From IMG/VR virus record IMGVR_UViG_3300030106_005418, positions 1 through 20,928 of that record: a stretch of DNA of 20,928 nt. One strand, 5' to 3'. Made by a program: the position numbers and the translations under genes. The stretch is from a virus. Below the pieces are notes generated by a model that saw only the letters and a list, made by a program, of their open reading frames with translations, did no database searches and had not been told where the DNA came from. Positions 1,595 to 20,109 of this stretch are shown here, piece after piece (position 1 is the stretch's first letter; every line of letters begins with the position of its first letter).

Positions 1595-1975
1595 ATGGCA
1601 TACTTCGCAAAATTAGATTCTGAAAACAATGTTTTAGGAATTCACACTGTTAGTGAAGCTAATTGTACAAATGATGCAACAAATGTTAGATCAGAAGAAA
1701 CGGGTGTTTCATTTTTAACTAAAGTTCACAAGTGGCCTTACTGGAAAGAATACAAAATAGATGGATCATTAAGAACAAGAGCTGCTGATATAGGTGGCAC
1801 TTACAATACAGAACACGATGCTTTTATTCCACCTAAACCATACCCTTCATGGAATTTTAATACTTCAAGTTTAAACTGGGATCCCCCAGTTGCTAAACCT
1901 ACTACAGGTGGTCCTTATGATTGGGATGAAGATACTCAAGCTTGGGTTCAAGCAGTTGCACCAGGTGCACAATAA
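1595..1975 (+). CDS. Small Trp/Pro-rich tail-associated protein
   Basis: 126 residues, starting two bases after the adhesin stop, with AGGA at 1586-1589 as a plausible ribosome site. The N-terminus (MAYFAKLDSENNVLG) and the later pattern of a GGTYN turn, FIPPKPYPSW, a NWDPP segment and a PYDWDEDTQAW segment match a small protein family common at the end of tail-fibre loci in marine phages, including cyanophages. It contains six Trp (47, 50, 86, 95, 110, 117) and ten Pro, most in the C-terminal 50 residues. No enzyme motif is visible. Its last 28 bases overlap the oppositely oriented methyltransferase gene. The function is unknown; a virion or fibre-tip accessory is likely from context. It is a candidate substrate for the neighbouring halogenase and hydroxylases (speculative). 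Confidence 0.6.
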   Translation: MAYFAKLDSENNVLGIHTVSEANCTNDATNVRSEETGVSFLTKVHKWPYWKEYKIDGSLRTRAADIGGTYNTEHDAFIPPKPYPSWNFNTSSLNWDPPVAKPTTGGPYDWDEDTQAWVQAVAPGAQ

Positions 1976-2673
1976 AAAATATTAAAAACATCTTTTCTAT
2001 TAAAATAGTTTTCATACTTTTCTTCCAACATACCTAAAGTAAAAGTTTTTGCTTCTGAATCTTTCCATTTAGAATATTCTTGTATATTTTTTAAACAAGC
2101 CGTGGCTACATTATCGGTTATATCTTTTACCTCTATAGATTTAAATAAATGTTTGTTTTTATAAAAAGTTTCTAATGTTCTATAGCTACAATCAGTGCAT
2201 ATAAATAGACCATCTGGTTTTAATAATTTAATTACATTTTTTAAAAATTTACTTTGATCTATATATAATGACATAGACTCTACGTTAGTAATAATATCAA
2301 AAGTGTTTTTATCATATGTTAAGTTTTCTGCGTTAGCGACTTTAAAATTTATGTCTTTATGTTTTGATTTTGCATAATCAATATTAACATCTGTAATATC
2401 ACAGCCATATACATCTTTGAAATTAAAGTATTTTTTATAAAGAGCAACACCGCCGCCTCTACCACATCCAACATCTAAAATATTTTTATTGTTGGTATCT
2501 ATGTTTTCTAAAAGTTTTAAATACAAAGAAGCTTCTCTTTTCATAATAAAATCTTTGTCCAATAAATTGGAGACAGGGTCATAACCATGATTCATAAAAT
2601 CATAAAACTTTATTTTATTAAGCAGTTTATTGTGATGTGTGTAGTCAGCTATAATTTGTTTATATTCTATCAT
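1948..2673 (-). CDS. Class I SAM-dependent methyltransferase
   Basis: 241 residues. Motif I, ILDVGCGRGGG, is at residues 65-75. The acidic residue ending strand beta-2 is D92 (YGCDIT). FDIITNVESM (125-134) and LLKPDGLFICTD (150-161) fit the later Rossmann-fold methyltransferase motifs. The FMNHGY-type N-terminus, CGRGGG and NVES resemble the phthiotriol dimycocerosate O-methyltransferase type, which acts on small molecules; the substrate here is unknown. It is the last gene of a three-gene minus-strand operon and its ATG overlaps the upstream stop (ATGA). Its final codons lie antisense to the end of the tail gene, so its C-terminus (APGATA) is encoded by the complement of that gene. It probably works with the halogenase and oxygenases of the same island as a tailoring enzyme. 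Fold assignment is strong, substrate unassigned. Confidence 0.85.
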   Translation of the reverse strand: MIEYKQIIADYTHHNKLLNKIKFYDFMNHGYDPVSNLLDKDFIMKREASLYLKLLENIDTNNKNILDVGCGRGGGVALYKKYFNFKDVYGCDITDVNIDYAKSKHKDINFKVANAENLTYDKNTFDIITNVESMSLYIDQSKFLKNVIKLLKPDGLFICTDCSYRTLETFYKNKHLFKSIEVKDITDNVATACLKNIQEYSKWKDSEAKTFTLGMLEEKYENYFNRKDVFNIFYCAPGATA

Positions 2674-3020
2674 AAATTAAAAAAATACCTTATCAATATG
2701 AACGAACTTATAAATATCCATATGGTGTTAAAAGCAACTAATGTGGGTAAAAGTTTTTGTTCACTAACCCATATTAACAGAGAAGAAGTCATTAATGTTA
2801 TAATATGTGCCCACCAAACTTCTATTTGAAAAAATATAGCAGGTAAAATAACAAACAGTTTACCTGACCAAGCCATTGCCTCTACAACGTTATATCTTTT
2901 TCTCCAATAATCTTTGTGCCACCACATGGAGTAAGAGTCTTTTATTTCTCTCCAACCAACATGATTGTAGATAATTAAAACTAAAACTAACCATAAAATA
3001 AAAGAGGCTAATAAAATCAT
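2670..3020 (-). CDS. Small multi-pass membrane protein of unknown function
   Basis: 116 residues. Hydrophobic stretches at about 2-18, 53-66, 68-85 and 90-112 suggest three or four membrane helices. They are separated by one polar, basic and aromatic loop (about residues 19-50, with Trp, His, Lys and Arg). No known family was recognised. Its ATG overlaps the stop of the upstream oxygenase gene (ATGA, 3017-3020), and its own stop overlaps the methyltransferase start in the same way, so the three genes are probably translationally coupled. Position between two enzymes suggests a membrane anchor, exporter piece or membrane-modifying helper, but nothing in the sequence proves this. Confidence 0.6.
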   Translation of the reverse strand: MILLASFILWLVLVLIIYNHVGWREIKDSYSMWWHKDYWRKRYNVVEAMAWSGKLFVILPAIFFQIEVWWAHIITLMTSSLLIWVSEQKLLPTLVAFNTIWIFISSFILIRYFFNL

Positions 3021-3460
3021 TCAAAGTCCATTGCTAATGTATATCTGTCTAAATTGTAATCTGCCGAAGGAGAGCTATGAGTAATAGAATTGTCAAATAT
3101 AACACAAGAGTTTTCTGGGCAGATAGTCTGTATTTCTTCTTTTTCATCTTTTAAAACAGTCCCTAATTTTGATTTGTTTTGTAACATATAAACAATTGAA
3201 AACGTGCCTGGATGAGTGTGCCAAGACTTAAAATCTCCTGTTGTATAGTTTGCCCAACATTTTAATATAGTTGAATTTTTAGGCATATATTTTTCTAGCT
3301 TTATTAATAATGGATGTGTTGCTACGTTAAAATGAAGGTCTGCATCACTTTGTAAACCAGGGAAATCTTTACCTCTATCATATACTTTAGTTTTAATTAC
3401 ATTAAGCAAAGTGCTTTTTTCAGAGGTAGATAATATGTCGTAATAAACTTTATATTTCAT
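3017..3460 (-). CDS. Fe(II)/2-oxoglutarate-dependent oxygenase (HxH type, 2OG-FeII_Oxy_5-like)
   Basis: 147 residues, short for the family, mostly the double-stranded beta-helix core. A WANYTTGDFKSWHTHPG segment (residues 69-85) gives H81 and H83 as metal-ligand candidates. FDNSITHSSPSA supplies the distal His (H128) and LDRYTLAMDF the 2OG-binding Arg (R139). This order fits the putative 2OG-Fe(II) oxygenase family in which HxH replaces the usual HxD. These enzymes couple 2OG decarboxylation to hydroxylation or related oxidation of a substrate. It is the first gene of the minus-strand arm of the island, reading away from the 3461-3502 gap. No clear Shine-Dalgarno sequence precedes it. The substrate is unknown. 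Confidence 0.75.
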   Translation of the reverse strand: MKYKVYYDILSTSEKSTLLNVIKTKVYDRGKDFPGLQSDADLHFNVATHPLLIKLEKYMPKNSTILKCWANYTTGDFKSWHTHPGTFSIVYMLQNKSKLGTVLKDEKEEIQTICPENSCVIFDNSITHSSPSADYNLDRYTLAMDFE

Positions 3461-3502
3461 GTATTTGCTTATAACTTTATATCGTGTATATATACTATAG
3501 AA
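3461..3502. promoter_or_regulatory. Divergent AT-rich promoter gap of the enzyme island
   Basis: These 42 bases separate two genes reading in opposite directions, so any local promoters for both arms must lie here or inside the genes. On the plus strand TATACT (3491-3496) is a good -10 candidate, with only a weak -35 (CTTATA, 3468-3473, spacer 17). The start point expected about seven bases after the -10 coincides with the ATG at 3503. A perfect 10-bp palindrome GTATATATAC spans 3486-3495. Read on the minus strand it also offers TATA-type -10 boxes. Assignment rests on position and sequence similarity only. Confidence 0.45.
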
Positions 3503-4057
3503 ATGAAAAAGACAATATTATCTGAAACAGCTATTTATACAGGGACCATAGACAGTCCTAAAGGATACGAAATAGACAGAGAAAAAATTAAAAAAGAGGC
3601 TGTCCAAGGATATGTTTTAAATAATAGAAAACACTTTATTGAAAATACTTGGGAGCACAAAGACTACAAATTAATGAGACATATATCTGAGTTAAGATTT
3701 GTAGAGGATTATATAAAAGATTTTTTTAAAATTAAAGCAGGGGCTGTTTTAGAGTCAAAAAATTATTACGTTAATATCTTAGAACATTTAGAACAATCTT
3801 ATTCTCGTAATAATTTAAATCTTAATCACTTATTAGATTCACCAAGCTACACTATGATCTATTGTGTAGATGTTACAGAAAAGTCTTCTTCTATAGTTAT
3901 AGAATATGATGATCATTTAAGAATTAATAAATTACATCAAGTCCCTGTAAAAAATAATATGTTCATAATAATGCCATCAACATTAAGATATTTTATATCT
4001 GAAAATTTATCAGAAGATCCAAACATTTTTATTAACATTAATTATAGAGCAAGATAA
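3503..4057 (+). CDS. Oxygenase-fold (double-stranded beta-helix) protein with probable loss of catalytic residues
   Basis: 184 residues. The C-terminal half has the layout of the 2OG-Fe(II) oxygenase proteins around it. There is a YYVNILEHLEQ strand (about 88-98), a single H109 in LNLNHLLDSPSYTMIYCV, a middle strand ending VPVKNNMFIIMPS (147-159), and a last strand FININYRAR. In the related families the PS-x-L-x-H position carries the distal metal His and the last strand the 2OG-binding Arg; here these are Y163 and about N174. The fold is therefore inferred but activity is doubtful. It leads the plus-strand arm; no ribosome site precedes its ATG, and its TAA shares one base with the next ATG. 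It may be a non-catalytic partner or a substrate-binding protein. Confidence is moderate because similarity was judged by eye. Confidence 0.5.
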   Translation: MKKTILSETAIYTGTIDSPKGYEIDREKIKKEAVQGYVLNNRKHFIENTWEHKDYKLMRHISELRFVEDYIKDFFKIKAGAVLESKNYYVNILEHLEQSYSRNNLNLNHLLDSPSYTMIYCVDVTEKSSSIVIEYDDHLRINKLHQVPVKNNMFIIMPSTLRYFISENLSEDPNIFININYRAR

Positions 4058-4683
4058 TGAATTTAAAACATACCTTTTGGCATTTTCCTAAAGCTTTAAG
4101 CGATAGGTTTTGTAAAGATGTCATAGACTTTTCTACCAAGAGAAAGCCTGTAAAGGGTATAACAGGGATAGTTGGTAATCATAGAGATCAAATGAAAAAC
4201 CCTTTATCAAAAGAAGAGTTTAAAAAAGTTAAAAAGAAAAGAAAGTCAGATATTGTTTGGTTAAACGAGCCATGGATTCATAGAGAGATACTTCCGTTTA
4301 TAAACACTGCAAACGAACAAGCTGAGTGGAATTTTAGTTGGGATCATTCAGAAGAAATACAGTTTACAAAATATAGAAAGGGCCAGTATTATGGTTGGCA
4401 TAGAGATAGCTTTACAGACCCATATCCTGAGGGAAAGTATAGAAAAGGTAAAGTTAGAAAGTTATCAGTTACATGTCAGTTGTCCGACCCTAACGACTAT
4501 GAAGGTGGTAACTTAGAATTAGGTGAGTTAAGCGAAGACATGACTTTAAAAATTTATAAGGCTGAAAAACAAAAGGGTTCAATAACTGTTTTCCCTTCGT
4601 TTGTTTACCATAGGATTACACCAATAACTAAAGGCACCAGATATAGTCTAGTAGTTTGGAATTTAGGAGTGCCATTTAAATGA
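4057..4683 (+). CDS. PKHD-type Fe(II)/2-oxoglutarate dioxygenase
   Basis: 208 residues with a complete facial triad. GWHRDSFTDPYP gives H115 and D117, FPSFVYHRITP gives H185, and KGTRYSLVVWN gives R195 for 2OG binding. The strand LSVTCQLSDPNDYEGGNLEL between them is the signature seen in PKHD/PiuC-like and prolyl-4-hydroxylase-like enzymes. The expected reaction is hydroxylation of a protein residue or small molecule with 2OG and O2. The start overlaps the previous stop by one base (TAATG), and the halogenase start overlaps its own stop, so it is probably co-translated with both. All catalytic residues are intact, so I expect an active enzyme; the substrate is unknown. Confidence 0.85.
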   Translation: MNLKHTFWHFPKALSDRFCKDVIDFSTKRKPVKGITGIVGNHRDQMKNPLSKEEFKKVKKKRKSDIVWLNEPWIHREILPFINTANEQAEWNFSWDHSEEIQFTKYRKGQYYGWHRDSFTDPYPEGKYRKGKVRKLSVTCQLSDPNDYEGGNLELGELSEDMTLKIYKAEKQKGSITVFPSFVYHRITPITKGTRYSLVVWNLGVPFK

Positions 4684-6116
4684 TGAAATCTATTTGTGTA
4701 GTTGGAGGGGGTAGTGCTGGATTAACTTCAGCTATGATACTTAAATCAAGATTTCCAACCATGAAAGTTAAAATAATTAAATCTGATAAGATAGGTATCA
4801 TAGGAGTTGGCGAAGCATCCACAGAACATTGGAGTTATTTTTTGCAGTTCTGTAGCTTAGACTACCTTGAGTGTTTAAGAGAAACGGGAGCAACCTTTAA
4901 GTATGGTGTGTTGTTTAAAGATTGGATGAAACATGATTACTTTAATAATTTAAACAGTCTTATAACAGATACACAAGCAGGTCAGTATTCCATAGCCATG
5001 GCTTACACAATAGCTTATGATTTAAAACCAGAAGAATATACCGACAGTCTAGCTCTACAAAACAAAGTTTATTTTCAAAGTGTGCCCACAAACCAATTTA
5101 ATTTTAATACTTTTAAACTAAACGAATGGTTATTAAAAAAATGTGTTGAAAGAGGCATAGAAATTGTTGACGATGATATTGAAGATATAGTTGTTAAAGA
5201 CAATAAAATTATAAAGTTAAAAGGTAAGCAAGAACATGTTGCTGATTTTTTTGTTGATTGCACAGGTTTTAAAAGACTATTGATTTCTAAATTAGGTGCT
5301 AAGTGGCAATCTTATAAAGAGTATCTGCCTATGAATGAGGCCATTGCTTTTCCGACCAAAGACACAGATGAGTATCCTCCTTACGTTACAGCAAGAGCCA
5401 TGAAAGCTGGTTGGATGTGGAGAACTCCTGTTAGAGGTAGATGGGGAAACGGTTATGTATTTGACAATAGATATATTAATGCTGAAGAAGCACAAAAAGA
5501 ATGCGAAGAATATTTAGGACATAAAATTAAAATTGCTTCTAACATAAAATTTGATGCTGGCAGTTTAGACAAACCTTGGCAAGGTAATTGTATTGCTTTG
5601 GGTCTGAGCTCTAGTTTCGTAGAACCATTAGAGGCAACATCAATTGGTTTTGGTATTAATCAATGTTTTTTATTTATACATATGTTGCTAAACTACGATC
5701 AACATATTATAGATGATTACAACGAAGACTTTCAATATTTGATAGAGAACGTTAGAGATTACGTAATTATTCATTACATGGTAGATAAAAAAGATTCACC
5801 TTTTTGGAAAGAATTAAAATTAAACCTACCAGATTCTTTAAAGAAAAATTTAGCTATTTGGAAGAATCGACTTCCTATGCAAATAGATTTTAAAAGTAAA
5901 TACTGTTTATTTTATCCTAATAACTATTCTTTAATATTAAAAGAAATAGGGTTTTTTGATAAACAAAAAATAAAAGAAGAATACGAAATGTTGCCAAAAG
6001 AACTTAAAAAATGGTGTGAGTCTAAGATGAAATTTCAAAAGCAAAGACTTAACGATAGAGGTATGTGGATAAGTCACAAGAGTTTTTTAGAGAGCTTAAC
6101 AAATGAAAGTAATTAA
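4680..6116 (+). CDS. Flavin-dependent tryptophan-halogenase-family enzyme
   Basis: 478 residues, near the usual length. An N-terminal FAD-binding Rossmann motif GGGSAG is at residues 9-14. The GVGEAS segment (42-47) follows. A FKYGVLFKDW segment (73-82) carries the presumed catalytic Lys (K74, matching K79 of PrnA/RebH). The halogenase motif WxWxxP is present as WMWRTP (245-250, Thr replacing the common Ile). FVEPLEATS (313-321) carries the active-site Glu (E318, matching E346/E357). The expected chemistry is FADH2- and O2-dependent halide oxidation to hypohalous acid, delivered through the Lys to an electron-rich substrate. A marine cyanophage enzyme of this family (VirX1 of phage Syn10) is known to halogenate, preferring iodide. 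No flavin reductase is in the window. ATG codons at 4680 and 4683 are both possible starts. Confidence 0.9.
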   Translation: MMKSICVVGGGSAGLTSAMILKSRFPTMKVKIIKSDKIGIIGVGEASTEHWSYFLQFCSLDYLECLRETGATFKYGVLFKDWMKHDYFNNLNSLITDTQAGQYSIAMAYTIAYDLKPEEYTDSLALQNKVYFQSVPTNQFNFNTFKLNEWLLKKCVERGIEIVDDDIEDIVVKDNKIIKLKGKQEHVADFFVDCTGFKRLLISKLGAKWQSYKEYLPMNEAIAFPTKDTDEYPPYVTARAMKAGWMWRTPVRGRWGNGYVFDNRYINAEEAQKECEEYLGHKIKIASNIKFDAGSLDKPWQGNCIALGLSSSFVEPLEATSIGFGINQCFLFIHMLLNYDQHIIDDYNEDFQYLIENVRDYVIIHYMVDKKDSPFWKELKLNLPDSLKKNLAIWKNRLPMQIDFKSKYCLFYPNNYSLILKEIGFFDKQKIKEEYEMLPKELKKWCESKMKFQKQRLNDRGMWISHKSFLESLTNESN

Positions 6117-6639
6117 AAATTATATAACAAAAGAAGAATTAAACACAATCAAACAAACCTTAGAGAGCCCTGCTTTTCCTTGGTATTGTAATCATGATAT
6201 TACTCCCAATACTTACAAACTGCCTTCATACAGATTCAAATTTGGAAAGGAAGAGAATAAAAAATCATACTTAAGAAACTTTCAATTTACCCATACTTTT
6301 TACATTAACTATAATATTAGTAGCAGCACTTATTTTAATATACTTAATCCAATTCTTAAAAAATTAAATCCTCACGCTTTAATAAGAATTAAAGCTAATC
6401 TCAGGCCCTACACAGAAAAACCTCATCAAACAGGATGGCATATAGATAATGAAGTACCTAGTGCTAAAACCGCTATTTTTTATGTTAACACTAACAATGG
6501 CTATACGTTATTTAAGAATAAAAAAATAATTAAATCGGAAGAAAATAAAATAGTTGTGTTTGATAGTAAACTTCAACATTGTGGTATGTCTAGCACTGAC
6601 ACTAAATACAGAATGGTAATTAATTTTAATTATGTCTAA
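6103..6639 (+). CDS. Fe(II)/2-oxoglutarate-dependent oxygenase (phage HxD...H...R type)
   Basis: 178 residues. QTGWHIDNEVPSAKTAIFYV provides H113 and D115. NNGYTLF marks the beta-hairpin typical of the viral and marine bacterial members. FDSKLQHCG gives H159, and KYRMVINFNY gives R170. The triad and 2OG-binding Arg are thus complete and an active dioxygenase is expected. The start lies 14 bases inside the end of the halogenase gene, and the next gene starts 8 bases before its own stop, giving tight coupling in the plus-strand arm. The substrate is unknown; the fold resembles enzymes acting on protein side chains or small polar metabolites. Confidence 0.82.
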   Translation: MKVIKNYITKEELNTIKQTLESPAFPWYCNHDITPNTYKLPSYRFKFGKEENKKSYLRNFQFTHTFYINYNISSSTYFNILNPILKKLNPHALIRIKANLRPYTEKPHQTGWHIDNEVPSAKTAIFYVNTNNGYTLFKNKKIIKSEENKIVVFDSKLQHCGMSSTDTKYRMVINFNYV

Positions 6640-7087
6640 TATAGATTTTGAAAAAAATATAATTGATTTTAAACGAGATATTGATTTTAATTATATATCT
6701 GAGTTGTTGGATAACAATAACTATGAATCACAGTTCTCTAGTGATTGGCATAGCTCGTTTGTTTTAAAGTCTGTTTTTAAAATAAACAACATACAAAACA
6801 ACAATGACTTTAAACCTTTCTACGATTATTGTGAGGAAAACTTTAACAAGAATAAAAAGAAATCAAATTTAATTATGTTTTTTTCTTTGAAAAGCGGTGG
6901 GTCTAGTATAACTCACAAAGACAAAGAAGACGTGTATATAGTTGGAGTAAAAGGAAAAACGTGGTATAAAGTTAACAATAAAGAATATATGGTTGAAAAA
7001 GGAGATCTATTAAAAATACCTGCTAATACTATTCACACAGGAATAGGATTAACACCAAGAATAATTCTTTCATACGGAGTTTATTAA
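6632..7087 (+). CDS. Cupin/JmjC-like oxygenase-fold protein
   Basis: 151 residues. The C-terminal half carries a cupin core: SGGSSITHKDKEDVYIVGVK gives H95 and D97 (HxD). VEKGDLLKIPANTIHTG gives the GD-x6-P turn and the second His (H135), and TPRIILSYG closes the barrel with R143. This pattern is like small JmjC/cupin-8 type hydroxylases. A catalytic role with Fe(II) is plausible, though a plain metal-binding cupin is possible. The N-terminal 80 residues are Asn/Phe/Lys-rich and not recognised. It is coupled to the gene before it (8-base overlap) and abuts the next gene (stop at 7085-7087, ATG at 7088). Confidence 0.65.
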   Translation: MSNIDFEKNIIDFKRDIDFNYISELLDNNNYESQFSSDWHSSFVLKSVFKINNIQNNNDFKPFYDYCEENFNKNKKKSNLIMFFSLKSGGSSITHKDKEDVYIVGVKGKTWYKVNNKEYMVEKGDLLKIPANTIHTGIGLTPRIILSYGVY

Positions 7088-7690
7088 ATGTCTTTTAAAA
7101 AAAACAAGTATCTACTATTTAAAAATATTATAACAAAACAATCTGCTACATTTCTAATGGGATACTCTTTATTAAAAAGAAAGGTTGTATCAACCATGCA
7201 AGAAACAAGGTACATATCTCCCAACGAAACTATCTTAGGTTCTTTCGGTGATAGTCAGGTTGATGGTACCTATTGTCATTATGGAGACATTGCGATGGAT
7301 ACTTTGTTGCAAGTTTTAAGATCTGAGATAGAGAAAAAAATTAAGATAAAATTAGTGCCAACATATTCTTATCAAAGAATTTATAAAAAAGGAGATATTT
7401 TAAAAAGACATAAAGATAGAGTTTCTTGTGAAATATCAGGCACTTTAAATTTAGGTGGAGATCCTTGGCCTATATTTATTAAAAAAGATAAAAAAGAAAT
7501 TAAAATTAATTTGGAACCAGGAGATATTTTGTTGTATCATGGTTGTGAATTAGAACATTGGAGAGAGCCTTTTTTAGGTGATTTCTGTGTGCAAGTGTTT
7601 TTGCATTACAACCAAGAAAGCTCTAAAAATCCCAATCTTTGGGATGGCAGGCCTCATCCTGGTTTACCAGCCCATTTTAAAAAAGGTTGA
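7088..7690 (+). CDS. Prolyl-4-hydroxylase-like 2OG-Fe(II) oxygenase
   Basis: 200 residues. YQRIYKKGDILKRHKDR supplies H108 and D110 (HxD), and EPGDILLYHGCELEHWREPF supplies H157 (H151 is a second candidate). QVFLHYNQ is the closing strand, where a Gln or His replaces the usual 2OG-binding Arg, a feature I recall in related phage proteins. A C-terminal NPNLWDGRPHPGLP extension is unusual. The family typically hydroxylates Pro or other residues; the substrate here is unknown. It is the last gene of the plus-strand arm. The next structural gene starts 32 bases later with no clear terminator between them, so late transcription may pass through. Confidence 0.72.
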   Translation: MSFKKNKYLLFKNIITKQSATFLMGYSLLKRKVVSTMQETRYISPNETILGSFGDSQVDGTYCHYGDIAMDTLLQVLRSEIEKKIKIKLVPTYSYQRIYKKGDILKRHKDRVSCEISGTLNLGGDPWPIFIKKDKKEIKINLEPGDILLYHGCELEHWREPFLGDFCVQVFLHYNQESSKNPNLWDGRPHPGLPAHFKKG

Positions 7691-7722: not shown

Positions 7723-9858
7723 ATGGCATTACAAAAAGTAAACTTTTTACCTGGATTTAATAAACAATTGACAGAAACTCAAGCTGAGGGACAATGGGTA
7801 GATGGTGATAATGTTAGATTTAGATATGGCTCACCAGAGAAAATAGGTGGTTGGTCTCAATTAGGCGAAAACAAGCTTACCGGTGCGGCTAGAGCTATGC
7901 ATCACATTGTAAGTAGCGGTGGAGTTAAGTACTCTATCATAGGAACAAACAGAATATTATATGCTTATTCAGGCGGTGTGTTCTATGACATACATCCAAT
8001 TAAATCTACAACAACACTTACTAGTGCGTTTAGCACAACCAACGGATCACCAACTGTTACTATAACTTTTTCTTCAGGTCATGGCTTAAGTCCTGGTGAT
8101 ATAATTTTATTAGATAATTTTACCACAATCACAAACTCTAATTATTCAGCATCTGATTTTGATGATAAAAAATTTATGGTAACTAGCACACCGACCAATC
8201 TTACAATAACTATAACAATGCCATCAAATGAGTCTGGATCTGGAGCCACAACATCTGGAGGTATTAGAGTTCAAATTTATTACCCAGTAGGACCAGCAGA
8301 ACAATTACCTGGCTTTGGTTGGGGATTAGGACAATGGAGTGGTACTGTGGCCAATCCACAAACAACAACTTTAAACGGAGCCATCAATGATTCTACAACG
8401 ACTATTGTTTTAACCAGTTCAACAAACTTCCCATCAACAGGAACAAACCATGTTTTAATAGGGACAGAAGAAATATCTTATACGGGTATATCTGGAAACA
8501 CCTTAACAGGAGTAACCAGAGGGGTTAGAAATACTACAGCAGCTAGTCACTCGGACGGAGCAACAATAACTAATACTTCTGACTATGTGGCGTGGGGCGA
8601 GGCTGCATCTGGAGATTTAACAATTGATCCAGGCCTCTGGTCTATTGATAACTTTGGTAGTAAAATTATTGCTTTAATACATAACGCAGAAGTTTTTGAA
8701 TGGAATTCAGATGCATCAAATGCTACCGCAACTAGAGCTACAATTATATCGGGTGCACCAACTGCGTCTAGAGATATGCTCGTATCTACACCTGATAGAC
8801 ACTTAGTATTCTTCGGCACAGAAACTACGATTGGAACAAAGTCTACTCAAGATCAAATGTTTATTAGATTCTCTGATCAAGAGAATATTAATTCATATAC
8901 GCCTACAGCAACCAATACAGCTGGTACACAGAGACTTGCAGACGGTTCTAGAATTATGGGAGCTGTTAGAGGTAGAGATGCAATCTATGTTTGGACTGAC
9001 ACTGCCTTATTTACACAAAGATTTATTGGACCACCATTTACATTTGGTTTTGCACAAGTAGGAACAAACTGTGGATTAATAGGACAGAATGCAGCGATTG
9101 AAGTAGATGGTGCTGCTTACTGGTTCTCAGAAAATGGTTTTTTCAAATATGCTGGTGCACTTCAATCACTACCATGTTTAGTAGAAGATTTTGTTTTTGA
9201 TGATTTAAATACTACAGCTAACCAACTTATAAACGCTGGATTAAATAATCTATTTGGTGAAATTAATTGGTTTTACTCTTCTTCAGGGTCAACCGTTATA
9301 GATAGAGTTGTAACTTATAATTATTTTGAATCAACACCACAGAGACCAATATGGACAACAGGAACTTTAGATAGAACAACATGGCAAGACTCTGCTGTTT
9401 TTGGAAAACCACACGCTACAGACTATGATGCTAGCTCAGACAATTCTTATGATGTAGTTGGCAATACAGATGGTTGCACTATTTATTACGAACATGAAAC
9501 TGGCACAGATCAAGTTACATCTACGGCAACAACAGCTATAACTTCTAACATACAATCAGGGGACTTTGATGTTTCACAAGGTGGCGAAGGTGAATTCTTT
9601 GCAAAAATTAGAAGATTCATACCTGACTTTTTATCACAAACAGGTAATACACAAATTACATTAAACCTAAGAAACTTTCCAAATAACACTGAGGCAAGCT
9701 CACCTCTTGGTCCTTTTACAATTACATCGTCAACGGAAAAGGTTGATACAAGGGCTAGAGCAAGAGCAGTGTCTTTAAAGGTTGCAAATACAGCTGCAGC
9801 ACAGAGTTGGAAACTTGGTGGATTTAGGTTAGACATACAACCAGACGGAAGAAGATAA
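7723..9858 (+). CDS. P22 gp10-like packaged-DNA stabilisation / head-completion protein
   Basis: 711 residues. The N-terminus (LPGFNKQLTETQAEGQWVDG, then NVRFRYGSPEKIGGW) is the signature of the phage stabilisation family (P22 gp10), which plugs the portal and bridges head to tail. This member is longer than P22 gp10. Beta-rich segments at about 105-165 (a GLSPGDIILL turn) and about 213-286 look like inserted domains; the second has the pattern FPSTGTNHVLIGTEEISYTG ... LTGVTRG ... TTAASHSDGA common in marine phage structural proteins. The body from about residue 300 has beta-propeller-like repeats such as DRHLVFFGTET and GRDAIYVWTDTALFTQRFIG. The ATG at 7723 has no good ribosome site. Its stop shares one base with the next ATG. 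Family assignment is good; precise head-tail position is inferred. Confidence 0.75.
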   Translation: MALQKVNFLPGFNKQLTETQAEGQWVDGDNVRFRYGSPEKIGGWSQLGENKLTGAARAMHHIVSSGGVKYSIIGTNRILYAYSGGVFYDIHPIKSTTTLTSAFSTTNGSPTVTITFSSGHGLSPGDIILLDNFTTITNSNYSASDFDDKKFMVTSTPTNLTITITMPSNESGSGATTSGGIRVQIYYPVGPAEQLPGFGWGLGQWSGTVANPQTTTLNGAINDSTTTIVLTSSTNFPSTGTNHVLIGTEEISYTGISGNTLTGVTRGVRNTTAASHSDGATITNTSDYVAWGEAASGDLTIDPGLWSIDNFGSKIIALIHNAEVFEWNSDASNATATRATIISGAPTASRDMLVSTPDRHLVFFGTETTIGTKSTQDQMFIRFSDQENINSYTPTATNTAGTQRLADGSRIMGAVRGRDAIYVWTDTALFTQRFIGPPFTFGFAQVGTNCGLIGQNAAIEVDGAAYWFSENGFFKYAGALQSLPCLVEDFVFDDLNTTANQLINAGLNNLFGEINWFYSSSGSTVIDRVVTYNYFESTPQRPIWTTGTLDRTTWQDSAVFGKPHATDYDASSDNSYDVVGNTDGCTIYYEHETGTDQVTSTATTAITSNIQSGDFDVSQGGEGEFFAKIRRFIPDFLSQTGNTQITLNLRNFPNNTEASSPLGPFTITSSTEKVDTRARARAVSLKVANTAAAQSWKLGGFRLDIQPDGRR

Positions 9859-13491: not shown

Positions 13492-16400
13492 ATGTCTGAA
13501 AAAATTAAAATACCAGAAATTCTACTAGATGATAGAGAAGATGTTACTGAGGAAGTCCCAAAAGAAATAGAGGACGGCACCCTAATAGAAGAAGCAAAAC
13601 CAATTCCAGAAGAAGAAAGAACCCCTTTCTTTGGTGACGTTATATCTAAAGATACTAAAACTGGAACTATAATAGAAGAACAAATTAGAGGTATTAGTAA
13701 AATTGTAGACAAGTTTCAAGGTAAAGAAATAGAGGGAGACGTATCTCTTTTTGAATCTTTGGCTGGCGCTACTATGAGTGCTGGTATTAAAATACCAAAA
13801 GGACTTGTAACGTTTGGAACGCTCCTATACGACATCTTTCAAGAAGAAGGTATACCAGTAGATGAGACTTTAACAGCTAAATTTAATGAAGCTTTTGATC
13901 AATCAACTTTAGGTAAAATAGAAAGAGCATCTGAAGAAGTAGCTGCAGAAACAGCAGCGGGTAAGCTTACAGAAGCGATTGGACAATTGTATGGTGCAGG
14001 TAAAATAGCAAAAAAAACTATTATACCAGTTGTAGAAAAAGGATCTCAAAAAGTTAGACAGCTTGTAAGTGCAATAAAAAGTGGTAGGTATGTTAAAACC
14101 ACAAATAATGTAAATGCGGCAAGAGCTATTAAAGAAGCAAACAAACTAAATACAATAACAGGCACAGACAAATTTGCAGCTATAGCTATAGGCGGTGGTA
14201 TAGGAACGGGTTTTATTGTTTCTGATGTAGAAAATATAGGGACTTTTGGTGATTGGGATTATTTAGATTTTTTACCTACAGGATTAGACAGGACGGCAAG
14301 AGAAGAAGGCGGTGAAGAATCAAAAAGACAACTGCTAAACAGATTAAAATTTGGTGCAGAGTTAGCTTTTCCTATTGTGCCCTTTATAGTAGGTGGCGGA
14401 AAAATAGGTAAACTTATAGTTCAAAAAGGTAAAGATCTTGCATACAGCGACAGTATGTTAGAAAGATGGGTTGATAGATTTATTGCAAAACCTTTTAGAT
14501 CTAGAAGTAATAAAACACAAGAATTGTTTGATGGTATACAAAAGCTAGAGGGTAAAAAATCTGCAGTAAAAATTTTAGCTAAAGATGCTTCTAGAAACAT
14601 TGATGACTCAATAAGAGAAATATCAAGAGAAACTAAAGGTGCTGCACAAGCACTTAAAGATCCAGCTAACTTATCAAAACTTATTGCAGAATTTACATAT
14701 TCTGCAGACGATGTTGTTAAAAAAAATAAAATTGTTTTTCCTGGGTTTAATCAAAAGGTTAGAAGTAAATTTATAGCGTCATTAAATAAACTAGGCGTAT
14801 CAAAAAAATCAGTTGAAAAAATAATAACAGATACTAAAGCCTTTAGAGAAACAGCAACAGGATTAAAAAATTTAATTGCTGCTAGTAAAAATGTAAAAGT
14901 TGGAACTGAAAAATTAAATAACATATTAAATGAAAGAATAAAAAATGTATTAGCTGTTGATTATAAGATAATTGATGATAACGCAGGATTATTTAACGGG
15001 TACACTCCTACTAATGAGAGTATAAATCAAGTAGCAAAAATTTTACAAAGATACGCAAGAGACAATGGCAGATCATTAGATAGTGAAACTGCAGTTAAAT
15101 TAGTAAACAATATAACTAAAAATGCATTTAAAGATAAATCTACAAACGCATTAGTATTTGATATTGGAGAAGAAAGCGCTTTTGCTGCTAAACCAGTGCA
15201 AACAGTAAACATAGGTAAGTATATAACGTCAGGTAAATTTAAACCAGATGGTAGAGGAGGTCTAATACAAAAAGAATCAGATCTTACAGCTTTTAAAAAA
15301 TTGTTTGGTGAGTATAAAAATGCTCAAAAGGGCATTTATAGCGTTATGACAGAATTGTCTGAAATTATAGCTAGAGATAAATTTTACACAAACCTATTAA
15401 AAGACTCACAAAATATTGCAAAACTATTAAGAGCTGGCGCAGATCCTGGACAAATAGGAAGACCTATATTTTTTAAAAGATATAACAAGGCTGTTACTGA
15501 ATTACCTTTTCAAGTTATAACAAGACAACCATTAAATTTAAAAACTAAGTTACCAGAAACAATTTATAAAAGCCCTTTAGATGGATACTTTACAACACAG
15601 CCATATGCTGAAGCTATAAGAGTTGGTGACGCTGTTGTAGGTAGTTCTATTACAAGAAGTTTACCCTATAGAATACTTATGTTAATTCCAAAGGGCGCAG
15701 CACAAGCAGCTAAAACTGTTCTTGGATTTTTTACACACGCAAGAAACTTTTTTTCCGCTGCTATTACAACAGTGCACAGAGGTAATATTTTAATACCACC
15801 AGCTAAAATAGGTGAGTTTGCAAACAGAGCTAGAAAAGCTGTACAACCTCAAATTCTGTATAGAATGACAGGTAATCCTAAATATAGAAACGCACCTGAA
15901 GACCAAGCAATGTATAGATTTTTATTAGAGGAAGGTGTTACAAACCAAAACGTAGTAGCGAGAGACGTAGAGGGTATCTTTCAAGATGTGGCACAAATAA
16001 GAACAAGATACGGTACAACAGATAGATTTTTTAATAAAGTTTTAAATACGGGCACAAAAAAATTTAAAAAAATATATGACGTTGCTCAAGATCTATACAC
16101 AGCAGAAGATGATGTATTTAGAGTATATAATTTTTTAGCTGAAGCACATAAATTAGACAATGCTTTTGAGATTGCAATTAAAAAAGGTCTTAAAGATGCT
16201 TCTGGTAAAGTTGTAACAAGAGCTAATAAACCATCTGACTTAGCAATCATGAAAGAGGCAGCGCAAATTGTAAGAGAAACTGTGCCAAACTATGCTTACG
16301 TATCTGATTTTGTAAAAAGCGTTAGACGTTCGCCATTTGGAAGTTTTGCAGCCTTTCCTGCAGAAATATACAGAACGGGAACAAACACTCTCATGAGAGG

Positions 16401-17679
16401 TTTAAAAGAAGTTAAAGACCCTATAAGAAAACAAATAGGATATAACAGTTTAGTTGGACAAGGTTTTACATACACATTTTTACCTGTAGCGGCCGTAGAA
16501 TTATTTAGAGGTATGTATGGAATAACTAGAAAACAATTAAGCGCTATAAGAGAAGTTTTACCAACATGGTCAGAGGATAATACTATTTTACCAATTTATG
16601 AGGACGGTAAATATAAATACATAGATTTTAGTCATGGCTTCTTTTATGACACGATGATTCAACCTGTACAAACAACACTGTCCACTGTGCAAAAAAATCC
16701 AAACGCTCCGTTAGTGCCTACAATTTTAGACGCTATGGTAAAAGCTGGAGGAAAAGTTTTAGAACCTTTTATTCAAGAAGCTATTTGGACATCAACTGTA
16801 TTAGATATTTTTACTAGAAATGGTAAAACAAAAGACGGTCGAACAATATTTAATCCGAGAGATTCGTTAGGTGATAAAATATCTAAATCATTTCAACATG
16901 CAGCGTACGAATTATCTCCTTTCTCTTATGCACAGATATTAAGATTATCAAAAGCCTTAACGGGAGACACATTAAAAGGTGAGAAATATCAAATACCTGA
17001 TGAACTTTTAGGCTTTACAGGATTTAGAAAAGTTCCAATAAATTTAGAAAAAAACTTAAACTTTAAAATAGCTGAGTTTAAAAGAAATACATTCGAAGAA
17101 CGTAAATTAATATTTGAAGGTACAAGAAGTGGCGACCCTGTAAAAGATGAAAATCAAATTATAAGACAATATATAAAAGCCAACAAACAGCATTTAGAAT
17201 CATACAGTAAACTACGTAGAATCTATGATGCTGTAAAAGTATTGGGCATGAGAGATCCAAAGATAGCAGAGGAGTTTGATGATCAAAAATCAATACCTGT
17301 ATATGAGTTTATAGAAAATAATTCTTTTAAACCATTTAATATTAGTGACGATGTTATCGCTGGTTTTGCTAAATTATCAGAAGAAAAAGGAATACCAAAT
17401 CCATTAAATGATAGAGTTCTTGAAAAATTGTTTCAAATACAAGAGGAATTATTTGAAAAACAAAAATTAAATCAACCTCTCGTAATTAACGAAAAAGATT
17501 ATTTATTACCAGAAACTAATACTAGCATGGTACCACCGTTACCGGAACAACCCATGCCAAATGCTGCAGTAGTGCAAACACCTGCACCAGTAACTGAAAC
17601 TGGATTGACTATGGTAGAAAAAGCTTTATTATCTGATGAGGAAAAAATGATGACACTTAAAAACAGAGGACTAGCTTAA
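13492..17679 (+). CDS. Large internal virion / DNA-ejection-type protein (1395 aa)
   Basis: This is the longest gene of the window. The N-terminal 65 residues are acidic. Ala/Gly-rich hydrophobic stretches occur near 228-243 (AAIAIGGGIGTGFIV) and 292-305 (LAFPIVPFIVGGG). Long Lys/Asn-rich helical regions follow. A central patch of Arg and aromatics lies around 700-860. The tail is Pro-rich (about 1345-1370) and closes with EKALLSDEEKMMTLKNRGLA. Size and position next to Ala/Gln-rich genes are like the large inner-core ejection proteins of podoviruses (compare T7 gp16 in size only). I could not find a transglycosylase or protease motif. Its stop shares one base with the next start. Role inferred; family not recognised. 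Confidence 0.6.
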   Translation: MSEKIKIPEILLDDREDVTEEVPKEIEDGTLIEEAKPIPEEERTPFFGDVISKDTKTGTIIEEQIRGISKIVDKFQGKEIEGDVSLFESLAGATMSAGIKIPKGLVTFGTLLYDIFQEEGIPVDETLTAKFNEAFDQSTLGKIERASEEVAAETAAGKLTEAIGQLYGAGKIAKKTIIPVVEKGSQKVRQLVSAIKSGRYVKTTNNVNAARAIKEANKLNTITGTDKFAAIAIGGGIGTGFIVSDVENIGTFGDWDYLDFLPTGLDRTAREEGGEESKRQLLNRLKFGAELAFPIVPFIVGGGKIGKLIVQKGKDLAYSDSMLERWVDRFIAKPFRSRSNKTQELFDGIQKLEGKKSAVKILAKDASRNIDDSIREISRETKGAAQALKDPANLSKLIAEFTYSADDVVKKNKIVFPGFNQKVRSKFIASLNKLGVSKKSVEKIITDTKAFRETATGLKNLIAASKNVKVGTEKLNNILNERIKNVLAVDYKIIDDNAGLFNGYTPTNESINQVAKILQRYARDNGRSLDSETAVKLVNNITKNAFKDKSTNALVFDIGEESAFAAKPVQTVNIGKYITSGKFKPDGRGGLIQKESDLTAFKKLFGEYKNAQKGIYSVMTELSEIIARDKFYTNLLKDSQNIAKLLRAGADPGQIGRPIFFKRYNKAVTELPFQVITRQPLNLKTKLPETIYKSPLDGYFTTQPYAEAIRVGDAVVGSSITRSLPYRILMLIPKGAAQAAKTVLGFFTHARNFFSAAITTVHRGNILIPPAKIGEFANRARKAVQPQILYRMTGNPKYRNAPEDQAMYRFLLEEGVTNQNVVARDVEGIFQDVAQIRTRYGTTDRFFNKVLNTGTKKFKKIYDVAQDLYTAEDDVFRVYNFLAEAHKLDNAFEIAIKKGLKDASGKVVTRANKPSDLAIMKEAAQIVRETVPNYAYVSDFVKSVRRSPFGSFAAFPAEIYRTGTNTLMRGLKEVKDPIRKQIGYNSLVGQGFTYTFLPVAAVELFRGMYGITRKQLSAIREVLPTWSEDNTILPIYEDGKYKYIDFSHGFFYDTMIQPVQTTLSTVQKNPNAPLVPTILDAMVKAGGKVLEPFIQEAIWTSTVLDIFTRNGKTKDGRTIFNPRDSLGDKISKSFQHAAYELSPFSYAQILRLSKALTGDTLKGEKYQIPDELLGFTGFRKVPINLEKNLNFKIAEFKRNTFEERKLIFEGTRSGDPVKDENQIIRQYIKANKQHLESYSKLRRIYDAVKVLGMRDPKIAEEFDDQKSIPVYEFIENNSFKPFNISDDVIAGFAKLSEEKGIPNPLNDRVLEKLFQIQEELFEKQKLNQPLVINEKDYLLPETNTSMVPPLPEQPMPNAAVVQTPAPVTETGLTMVEKALLSDEEKMMTLKNRGLA

Positions 17680-18479: not shown

Positions 18480-18688
18480 TGCCTAACGGAAAACCACCAA
18501 AAACAACTGGCGAACATTTAGTATCTCTCTACGGATATGTAACAGGATTTAAAAAACAAATAGATCATCTACACGCAGACATAGGTAAACTAGAAAGAAA
18601 AACAGACACTGTAATTTATTGGATTGTTGGTGGTGCGTTTACAACTATACTAACGCTTGTAGGTTTATTTAATTTATTTATAAATTAG
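18479..18688 (+). CDS. Holin-like small coiled-coil plus membrane protein
   Basis: 69 residues. A polar N-terminus leads into a heptad-like region (about 22-44, including HADIGKLERKTDT) and then a single strong membrane helix (about 45-67, YWIVGGAFTTILTLVGLFNL) at the C-terminus. This architecture is that of XhlA-type haemolysin/holin-associated proteins, so a lysis role is likely. No endolysin gene is in the window, so the partner must lie elsewhere. The start shares one base with the previous stop. The stop overlaps the stop of the convergent helicase gene within TTAG at 18685-18688. It could also be a virion membrane protein. Confidence 0.55.
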   Translation: MPNGKPPKTTGEHLVSLYGYVTGFKKQIDHLHADIGKLERKTDTVIYWIVGGAFTTILTLVGLFNLFIN

Positions 18689-20109
18689 ATCCAAGCTTTT
18701 AACTCTTCACCCATTATCTCTGTAGCTATATTAACTTTATTACGTAACGATTTTACAATTTTAGTATCAATCGTATCTTCTGCAATAATATCAATGTATG
18801 TCATAGGTTTTTCTTGGCCTATTCTATCTATTCTAGCTTCTGACTGCTGTCGTTTTTCAAGGTCATAACCGTTTGAATAATATATCATTGTTGATGCACC
18901 TGTAAGTGTAATACCGTAACCACCTGTTTGTGTTGTGCCAATTATAAATCTAACTGGTGAGTTTTTATCTTGTATTTTATCAATTGCTTTTTGTCTATCA
19001 TCTGTACTTGTATCACCATAGTATGTAACAATAGTTTTTTCTCCATATTTTTTTGATATGGCTTCTACAATTTTTTCTATGTCATGTCTGTAATGAGCCC
19101 ATATTACAGCTTTGCCTTCTACTTCTTCTAGTATGTCCATAAGTTGTGTAATACGATTATTCTTAAGATCTTGAACGGTGCCATCATTAGATTTAAAATG
19201 ACCACATGTTATCTGGTGTAGTCTCATGAGCTGTGTAATCACAGTTGCAGATGTAACCATCTTACCATTTAAGAATGCAATAGCTTCTTGTTTCATTTGT
19301 TTGTAAACTTTCTTTTGTTCATCTGTAAGCTCCACAGTTCTTTTCATATATGTTTTACCAGGTAAATCTAAACAATCATCTTTTAATACACGATATGAAA
19401 AAGGTTTAAGTTTTTCTGATAGCTCAGGTAGATTTCTATATCCAACAACAATCTCAACTTGTCTACCAGATACATTTATTTTTCTACATATTGCATACCT
19501 AGCCTTAAACACATAATAGGATGATTGATCTAATAGATAAGGATCTAAAAAATAACATTGTGTAAATAGATCTAATGGTGATTTTGTAACTGGTGAGCCT
19601 GTGAGTATTCTTCTGTATTTTGTAAACTGTTTTAAATACACTATGTTCTTAGTTCTTTTTGCTGCAGGGTTTTTTATAGTGGTAGACTCATCTATACCCA
19701 TTAATGTTTTATGACTATTTAAAAACTTTTCTGCAAACTGTATACCTTTTTTCGTAGAGAAAGCTTCTACATTCATAATTAAAATATGAAGCTCCGCTCC
19801 TACTTTAAACAAGGGTTGAAGATCTTTTGCTTTAGGATCTGTTCTCCACAAACCTACTCTTTTCTCTATGTAGTCAGGCATATGATTAGGTATTTCAGAG
19901 TCAAACCAATTTTTATAAACACCTTTTGGTGCAACAATTAAAGCACCATTTATCTTACCAGCGTTGTAAAGCATGGCAATATTATCAATTAATACTTTTG
20001 ATTTACCAGTGCCCATCTCCATAAAATACGCAAAAACTTCTTTGTTCCATGACATTTCAAGAGCTTTCTTTTGATGAGCAAAAGGCTTGCTTTTATATTT
20101 GTAATGCAT
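18685..20109 (-). CDS. SNF2-type DEAD-like helicase/ATPase
   Basis: 474 residues. An N-terminal Q13 precedes motif I EMGTGKS (31-37). Motif Ia is LIVAPKGVYKNW, motif II DEST (140-143), motif III LTGSPV (169-174), and the C-terminal lobe has TQTGGYGITLTGA and motif VI QQSEARIDRIGQ (about 420-431). This set is typical of the short phage SNF2 helicases, which translocate on double-stranded DNA and act in replication, recombination or chromatin-like remodelling. It has no accessory domain. It reads opposite to the structural genes and converges on the holin-like gene with no room for a terminator. The 71-base gap upstream holds the divergent promoter for the next gene. Confidence 0.88.
   Translation of the reverse strand: MHYKYKSKPFAHQKKALEMSWNKEVFAYFMEMGTGKSKVLIDNIAMLYNAGKINGALIVAPKGVYKNWFDSEIPNHMPDYIEKRVGLWRTDPKAKDLQPLFKVGAELHILIMNVEAFSTKKGIQFAEKFLNSHKTLMGIDESTTIKNPAAKRTKNIVYLKQFTKYRRILTGSPVTKSPLDLFTQCYFLDPYLLDQSSYYVFKARYAICRKINVSGRQVEIVVGYRNLPELSEKLKPFSYRVLKDDCLDLPGKTYMKRTVELTDEQKKVYKQMKQEAIAFLNGKMVTSATVITQLMRLHQITCGHFKSNDGTVQDLKNNRITQLMDILEEVEGKAVIWAHYRHDIEKIVEAISKKYGEKTIVTYYGDTSTDDRQKAIDKIQDKNSPVRFIIGTTQTGGYGITLTGASTMIYYSNGYDLEKRQQSEARIDRIGQEKPMTYIDIIAEDTIDTKIVKSLRNKVNIATEIMGEELKAWI

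Follow-up and report, generated by a model that had tools for sequence, protein, structure and literature searches.

The window analysed here, a linear viral contig of 20.9 kb (IMG/VR record IMGVR_UViG_3300030106_005418, positions 1 to 20,928), carries at positions 1948-7690 an island of nine contiguous, mostly overlapping open reading frames (ORFs) coding for a flavin-dependent halogenase, a methyltransferase, a membrane protein and six oxygenase-fold proteins. The island occupies a conserved place next to tail-fibre genes, its active sites are intact except in one pseudo-oxygenase and for a variant motif in OX1, it is exchanged between phages as a block together with C_126, the gene of a small tail-fibre companion protein, and similar enzyme sets recur in other phage families, again next to tail genes. 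The best-supported reading is that these enzymes would oxidise, and sometimes halogenate, the tail or adhesin proteins of the virion rather than a small molecule. The island is proposed, at slightly less than an even chance, to be a modular, horizontally exchanged protein-modifying array that a podovirus of the pelagiphage type carries in its host-recognition (tail-fibre) module.

Conserved position and block exchange of the island

The ORF listing showed three ORFs on the minus strand (241, 116 and 147 aa) followed by six on the plus strand (184, 208, 478, 178, 151 and 200 aa). The minus-strand genes are MT (1948-2673), coding for a class I S-adenosylmethionine (SAM) methyltransferase of 241 aa (PF08241, E=1e-17; orthologs n=8), MEM (2670-3020), coding for a small Trp-rich membrane protein that matched no family, and OX1 (3017-3460), coding for a 2-oxoglutarate (2OG)-Fe(II) oxygenase-like protein of the phrog_81 type. 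They are followed on the plus strand by OX2 (3503-4057), with a double-stranded-beta-helix oxygenase fold in the model; OX3 (4057-4683), a PKHD-type (PiuC/YbiX-like) 2OG-Fe(II) oxygenase; HAL (4680-6116), of the flavin-dependent halogenase family; OX4 (6103-6639), a 2OG-Fe(II) oxygenase of phrog_274; CUP (6632-7087), a cupin/JmjC_2-like putative oxygenase; and OX5 (7088-7690), a 2OG-Fe(II) oxygenase with a prolyl-hydroxylase-like fold. The place, strand and family of all nine (ORF listing, Pfam/PHROG) agreed with an earlier annotation made without database searches (the sequence-only reading).

Upstream, on the plus strand, lie the fibre/adhesin gene A_adh (3-704), whose 5′ end is beyond the window, B_gly (717-1592), coding for a fast-evolving glycine-rich adhesin (Gly_rich_2, PF21722), and C_126 (1595-1975; phrog_7759). 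The site is closed by STAB (7723-9858, plus strand; phrog_3287, E 6e-110), a virion structural/stabilization gene used as backbone marker, whose product was 41-49% identical to those of HTVC023P-type pelagiphages and a related uncultured phage (023Pt_psg01 and HTVC027P, both 47-49%, and HTVC023P).

Related loci, numbered with the prefix L, were collected by scans anchored on the halogenase (34 loci), STAB (80 loci) and OX3 (80 loci). The order A_adh, B_gly, C_126, array, STAB was repeated across independent contigs, and loci L002-L011 share the gene set and order of the island. All 20 complete sites reached via STAB contained between C_126 and STAB 3-9 oxygenase-fold genes (median 6), and an oxygenase gene was located within 4.5 kb in 32 of the 34 STAB contigs that extended far enough upstream. 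Since relatives hold 3-10 oxygenase genes at this place (up to ten in L024-L027), the gene density which the sequence-only reading had regarded as unusual is typical of the site, six being the median. Nor is there support for the halogenase as the defining gene of the island: it was present in 4 of the 20 STAB-reached sites, which were sampled regardless of it, and in 1 of 39 complete sites reached via OX3, while L030 has three consecutive halogenases. Most related arrays lack both halogenase and methyltransferase and consist almost purely of oxygenases, with OX3 as the most frequent member; in L004-L006 another OX4-type gene stands in place of CUP. The locus recurs as an oxygenase array to which a halogenase is sometimes added.

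Linkage between genes was evaluated from correlations of pairwise distances, for which the permutation p value has a floor of 0.005 (199 permutations) and paralogy among the OX genes adds noise. Two groups were obtained, one comprising C_126, OX2, OX3, HAL and OX5 (r 0.26-0.96; 0.71 for OX3-OX5, 0.96 for OX2-HAL and 0.53 for C_126-HAL) and the other A_adh, STAB, H113 and T388 (r 0.31-0.66). The correlation across groups was nil (C_126-STAB -0.02, HAL-STAB -0.16), though OX5 and STAB are separated by 33 bp. Mosaicism was seen both ways, L011 combining a 98% identical STAB with a 59% identical HAL, and L006 a 93% identical HAL with a 51% identical A_adh. The array also keeps C_126 and B_gly adjacent when it is located upstream of the adhesin (023Pt_psg01, HTVC023P) or inverted (L175, L183, L184). 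The island moves between backbones as a block together with C_126; this exchange reflects a shared history of the genes, and a shared substrate does not follow from it alone.

The ratio of nonsynonymous to synonymous substitution rates (dN/dS) in close pairs was mostly 0.02-0.35 for the island genes and 0.02-0.04 for HAL, and purifying selection on the island genes goes far beyond chance. The corresponding values for B_gly against close relatives were higher (0.25-0.73).

Comparable clusters were found in other phages, among them T4-like marine myoviruses, where they lie next to tail or baseplate genes. In the T4-like contigs L016-L019 the order B_gly, HAL, OX3, OX1, OX5 lies upstream of the terminase, sheath, tube and portal genes, and oxygenase genes are near related halogenases in P-SSM2, S-H38, S-SCSM2R and HTVC008M. 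In Syn10 a tail-fibre adhesin gene (phrog_863, Gly_rich_2 PF21722) is followed by genes for 272 and 164 aa, two halogenase genes and four genes including two phrog_81 oxygenases, and in P-RSM6 two Gly_rich_2/phrog_863 adhesin genes precede two halogenase genes and six or more genes for oxygenases or cupins. Halogenase-free oxygenase arrays adjoin C_126 and tail genes in S-CAM8, S-SSM5 and HTVC033P. A profile search retrieved 74 further halogenase loci, with an oxygenase within 4 kb in 56, at least two oxygenases in 41 and several halogenases in 19; by comparison, of 57 loci that lack a halogenase and were collected around an unrelated small membrane gene, 3 had an oxygenase (Fisher p 3e-17, the loci not being fully independent). 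The co-occurrence and recurring gene order which the sequence-only reading had suggested looking for were thus both found. That the genes never co-occur elsewhere, which would have spoken against a joint role, is rejected because the set and order recur, the array distances correlate and 56 of the 74 halogenase loci have a nearby oxygenase.

Several viral contigs (L323, L326, L331, L341, L345, L348 and L357) contain 3-5 halogenase and 5-11 oxygenase genes inside 13 kb, the clusters of L348 and L357 being edged by a Gly_rich_2-type adhesin gene. At L339:8411-9904 a halogenase/oxygenase cluster adjoins a T4-type tail sheath stabiliser gene, and in several contigs of the L317:1207-9880 type it lies between a NolO-type carbamoyltransferase gene and a baseplate tail-fibre connector gene.

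Halogenase, oxygenase-fold proteins and accessory genes

HAL matched PF04820, the flavin-dependent (tryptophan) halogenase family, with 295 bits (cut-off 21 bits; E=1e-87), and showed a GGGSAG motif at the flavin adenine dinucleotide (FAD) site and the motif W245-M-W247-R-T-P250. The intact Lys/Glu pair and WxWxxP motif noted in the sequence-only reading proved to be conserved among its relatives (K74 in 46/46, E318 in 98%, W245/W247/P250 in 100/93/100%). Free-tryptophan halogenases such as PrnA, RebH and PyrH bind Trp through a YY...E...W segment near the C-terminus. In a profile alignment the PyrH stretch YYHGFETYSW stood opposite KYCLFYPNNY of HAL, in which the Tyr pair and the Glu seem to be lost, and HAL apparently lacks the free-Trp-binding segment, an assignment that is tentative. 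Similarity of HAL to QhpG and LodB, two flavoproteins that help to mature Trp-derived cofactors within proteins, was remote and below threshold and serves only as a lead.

A bacterial origin of the island was rejected, since the best matches labelled as bacterial, L212 and L231, come from phages whose contigs had been assigned to metagenome-assembled genomes (MAGs). Both L212 (NZMJ01000086, Maricaulis MAG) and L231 (NHDJ01000139, Verrucomicrobia TMED56) are pelagiphage-type contigs with a halogenase array, reflecting binning contamination. Other bacterial halogenases were at most 37% identical to HAL and, apart from the phage-like L219, none was located beside an oxygenase array.

Beside HAL the island encodes four intact or near-intact 2OG enzymes, one JmjC/cupin protein and one pseudo-oxygenase. 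OX3 (2OG-FeII_Oxy_3, E=5e-15) has H115, D117, H185 and R195 each in 100% of 124 relatives, and OX4 (phrog_274, E=9e-48) has H113, D115, H159 and R170 in 98-100% of 66 relatives; motif and Pfam/PHROG matches place both in the 2OG-Fe(II) superfamily. OX5 (phrog_2954, E=8e-50) belongs there by motif, model and Foldseek search: H108 and D110 are present in 100% and H157 in 99% of 122 relatives, the basic residue binding 2OG being left unassigned. Its model, built from 40 sequences, had a mean predicted local distance difference test score (pLDDT) of 95.7, and the nearest solved folds were 2OG-Fe(II) oxygenases, with the Pseudomonas putida prolyl hydroxylase at the top (4iw3, 4j25; E 9e-9) and prolyl hydroxylase domain enzymes (PHDs), BesD/HalD-type and AlkB-type enzymes further down the list. 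In OX1 (phrog_81, E=1e-9) the residues H81-x-H83...H128...R139 are invariant (16/16), the usual Asp being replaced by His, and CUP (JmjC_2/cupin, 26 bits) has H95, D97 and H135 in 5/5 relatives. In agreement with the degenerate oxygenase-fold protein of the sequence-only reading, OX2 (phrog_81, E=4e-6) showed no conserved His/Asp set in 44 sequences, the HxD...H metal ligands being absent. Its model (mean pLDDT 90.2) retrieved in Foldseek a list including PHDs and the viral collagen prolyl hydroxylase vCPH, and OX2 is, as modelled, a pseudo-oxygenase of the same fold class under purifying selection.

Two current labels are not compatible with these data. The phrog_2954 family, to which OX5 belongs, goes by the name ferrochelatase in PHROGs as well as in published work on pelagiphages and cyanophages; its fold and HxD...H motif are those of a 2OG-Fe(II) oxygenase, and no ferrochelatase Pfam model matched any of 40 members. 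The label DNA endonuclease V for phrog_274 (OX4) was rejected likewise, as the family carries the conserved 2OG motif. Both labels have been propagated into many phage annotations, and their correction clears misleading auxiliary-metabolism claims from marine virome studies.

MT is optional and was found in seven related loci with a halogenase. Relatives of MEM (42-46% identity) adjoin halogenases in other phages and also occur without them; MEM had first seemed confined to halogenase loci, and its role as a halogenase-specific partner was rejected when an independent MEM-anchored scan gave a halogenase in 23 of 80 loci. In large phages (L466-L477, e.g. L466:3248-6306) an SbmA/BacA-like peptide transporter, a MEM-type protein and a halogenase are encoded in a row, and one phage contig (L035:529-6451) has genes for a collagen-like tail fibre, a radical-SAM-like protein, a MEM-type protein and a halogenase inside 6 kb.

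The MT and C_126 genes are convergent with a 28-bp overlap (1948-1975), and MT, MEM and OX1 together make up an inverted sub-block, an arrangement shared with HTVC027P. The island has a GC content of 27-34% vs 36-39% in the structural genes just downstream. A scan of promoters and terminators gave no excess over shuffled sequences. Further downstream, a late-block protein of 1395 aa (13492-17679) without Pfam or PHROG match has homologues 27-28% identical in cultured relatives and is probably an internal virion/ejection protein, and a SNF2-type helicase gene (18685-20109, minus strand) lies on the strand opposite to the structural genes.

Tail proteins as candidate substrates and alternative functions

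A tail or adhesin protein is favoured as the substrate because the linkage to tail genes persists through inversion and relocation, because no scaffold genes are present in the island, because the modelled folds of OX5 and OX2 resemble prolyl hydroxylases, because the free-Trp-binding segment of HAL seems, tentatively, to be lost, and because VirX1, the Syn10 halogenase (PDB 6qgm), reportedly has a large open active site (PMC8407142). The likeness of the OX5 and OX2 models to protein-acting prolyl hydroxylases, of CUP to JmjC_2 and of OX3 to PKHD proteins was counted in the same sense.

From its location within the structural genes, the array would be expressed late in infection. OX1, OX3, OX4, OX5 and CUP would hydroxylate, by the chemistry usual in 2OG families, side chains of newly made tail or adhesin proteins, B_gly being the first candidate. 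HAL, receiving FADH2 from host reductases as expected of its family, would chlorinate or brominate aromatic side chains, MT would add methyl groups, and the metal-less OX2 may act as a scaffold or substrate-recognition partner. Exchange of members would alter the chemistry of the receptor-binding surface beyond the reach of sequence change alone, offering another route to altered host recognition or to resistance to host proteases. A bolder version, that marine phages combinatorially oxidise and halogenate their own receptor-binding adhesins with exchanged arrays and that the halogenases of viruses, VirX1 among them, natively act on the glycine-rich adhesin, with His or Tyr as possible sites, is rather doubtful.

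Several results weigh against tail proteins as substrate. Fold likeness to protein hydroxylases does not establish substrate specificity, small-molecule oxygenases having the same fold and appearing on the match lists. The array distances do not track A_adh and track B_gly weakly, and no oxygenase lies within 5 kb of the halogenases of S-PM2, S-RIM44, S-MbCM6 and Campylobacter CP21. The co-inherited, Trp/Pro-rich C_126 was rejected as a dedicated substrate, as it is present in oxygenase-free phages and keeps its Trp residues unchanged whether the phage has a halogenase or not. The His content of B_gly was higher with a halogenase (1.14 vs 0.51%, 12 vs 43 clusters, p=7e-5, first of 20 residues); in a pre-stated replication with new, non-overlapping clusters it was 0.97 vs 0.54% (one-sided p=0.052), so that direction and size were repeated with marginal significance and the covariation is a hypothesis only. 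In the discovery set, phages with a halogenase had an adhesin enriched in neither Trp nor Tyr, and a rise of Tyr in the replication set alone was not relied on.

Among the other explanations, the tailoring of a small molecule or glycan, by which a metabolite, an amino acid or a surface polysaccharide from the host would be decorated to help the infected cell or exclude competitors, is unlikely but survives best. It was predicted by Iyer et al. 2021 (PMC7824862) for a 10-gene cluster of S-SSM6a; a halogenase, a methyltransferase and 2OG enzymes are a usual tailoring set, and VirX1 accepts many small aromatics (PMC8407142). However, no nonribosomal peptide synthetase, polyketide synthase, core gene of a ribosomally synthesized and post-translationally modified peptide, carrier or transport gene was found among the nine genes or their neighbours, as a natural-product cluster would have, and the island contains no scaffold-building, activating or resistance gene. 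Moreover, the array sits and moves with tail genes instead of host-takeover genes, nearly all genes of most related arrays are for oxygenases, and their make-up varies strongly, unlike that of an ordered pathway. Of the coordinated pathway put forward in the sequence-only reading, the co-inherited unit stands on the distance correlations and the recurring set and order, whereas a small-molecule or peptide pathway is possible and less likely than tail-protein modification.

Slightly less probable again is the modification of host proteins or receptors, in which EF-Tu, ribosomal or outer-membrane targets would be hydroxylated for translation takeover or a block of superinfection. The P. putida enzyme matched by OX5 was solved with EF-Tu, and the JmjC_2 match of CUP is of the ribosomal oxygenase type; but the array is inside the structural block by the tail genes, and its variation through exchange among closely related backbones is what host-recognition genes would be expected to show. 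For a conserved host target, selection of a single conserved enzyme would be expected instead of 3-9 shuffled paralogues.

An insertion hotspot gathering unrelated morons without a joint role would account for the variable content, the moron-like gene overlaps and the GC content below that of the downstream genes, yet this is improbable in view of the low dN/dS, the invariant active sites, the overwhelming bias to a single fold class and the correlated histories of neighbours. Least probable is a housekeeping role, in which 2OG enzymes would lower 2OG or use iron and tune host nitrogen control, as proposed for cyanophages through NtcA (Sullivan 2010, PMC3037559), with the ferrochelatase, reported as paired with 2OG enzymes by Wittmers 2022 (PMC9599517), as iron partner, since that protein itself has the 2OG-oxygenase fold and HxD...H motif, the halogenase needs neither 2OG nor iron, and array diversity and tail linkage are left unexplained.

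Comparison with known phage clusters

Modification of tail proteins by the array, if true, would give phages a change of host range by a route invisible to sequence-based prediction, and a phage group ranking with the most abundant in the ocean would bear modified proteins on its virions. Parts of the system have been described. Halogenases and 2OG genes of phages were already known (Sullivan 2010, PMC3037559; 2010 review of T4-like cyanophages, PMC2984593), and in the hypervariable metaviromic islands by which marine phages recognise hosts, genes for Fe(II)-oxygenases rank with the most frequent (Mizuno et al. 2014, PMC3909814), although the part of that report available describes no array and no halogenase and proposes no chemistry. 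The 2OG-Fe(II) oxygenase/ferrochelatase clusters of HTVC023P-type pelagiphages (Wittmers et al. 2022, PMC9599517) come from the same phage lineage, with OX2-OX3-OX5 beside B_gly/C_126 in 023Pt_psg01 and HTVC023P; the accessible text differs in mentioning no halogenase, in taking the ferrochelatase label at face value and in making no reference to tail linkage, block exchange or a common fold.

The cluster of the jumbo cyanophage S-SSM6a likewise combines a flavin halogenase and a methylase with several enzymes of the 2OG and cupin types. It differs in its carbamoyltransferases and HAD phosphatases, which are absent from the island of the window, and in having been interpreted as secondary metabolism or capsule decoration (PMC7824862), whereas the window island is located in a podovirus tail module. 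No paper placing halogenases as optional members of tail-linked oxygenase arrays was found in a search made mostly outside the subscription journals. New in this work are the halogenase as an optional array member, the block exchange, the fold correction, the context of VirX1 and a testable substrate.

Viral halogenases have been known since the early cyanophage genomes, and VirX1 is a solved biocatalyst for which a 2021 review table gives no pathway. It belongs to the same family as HAL (profile E 7e-101), being about 28% identical over 79% of the HAL query and from another phage family, and its gene in Syn10 too sits in a block of tail adhesin, halogenases and oxygenases, a context which makes the function of these enzymes testable.

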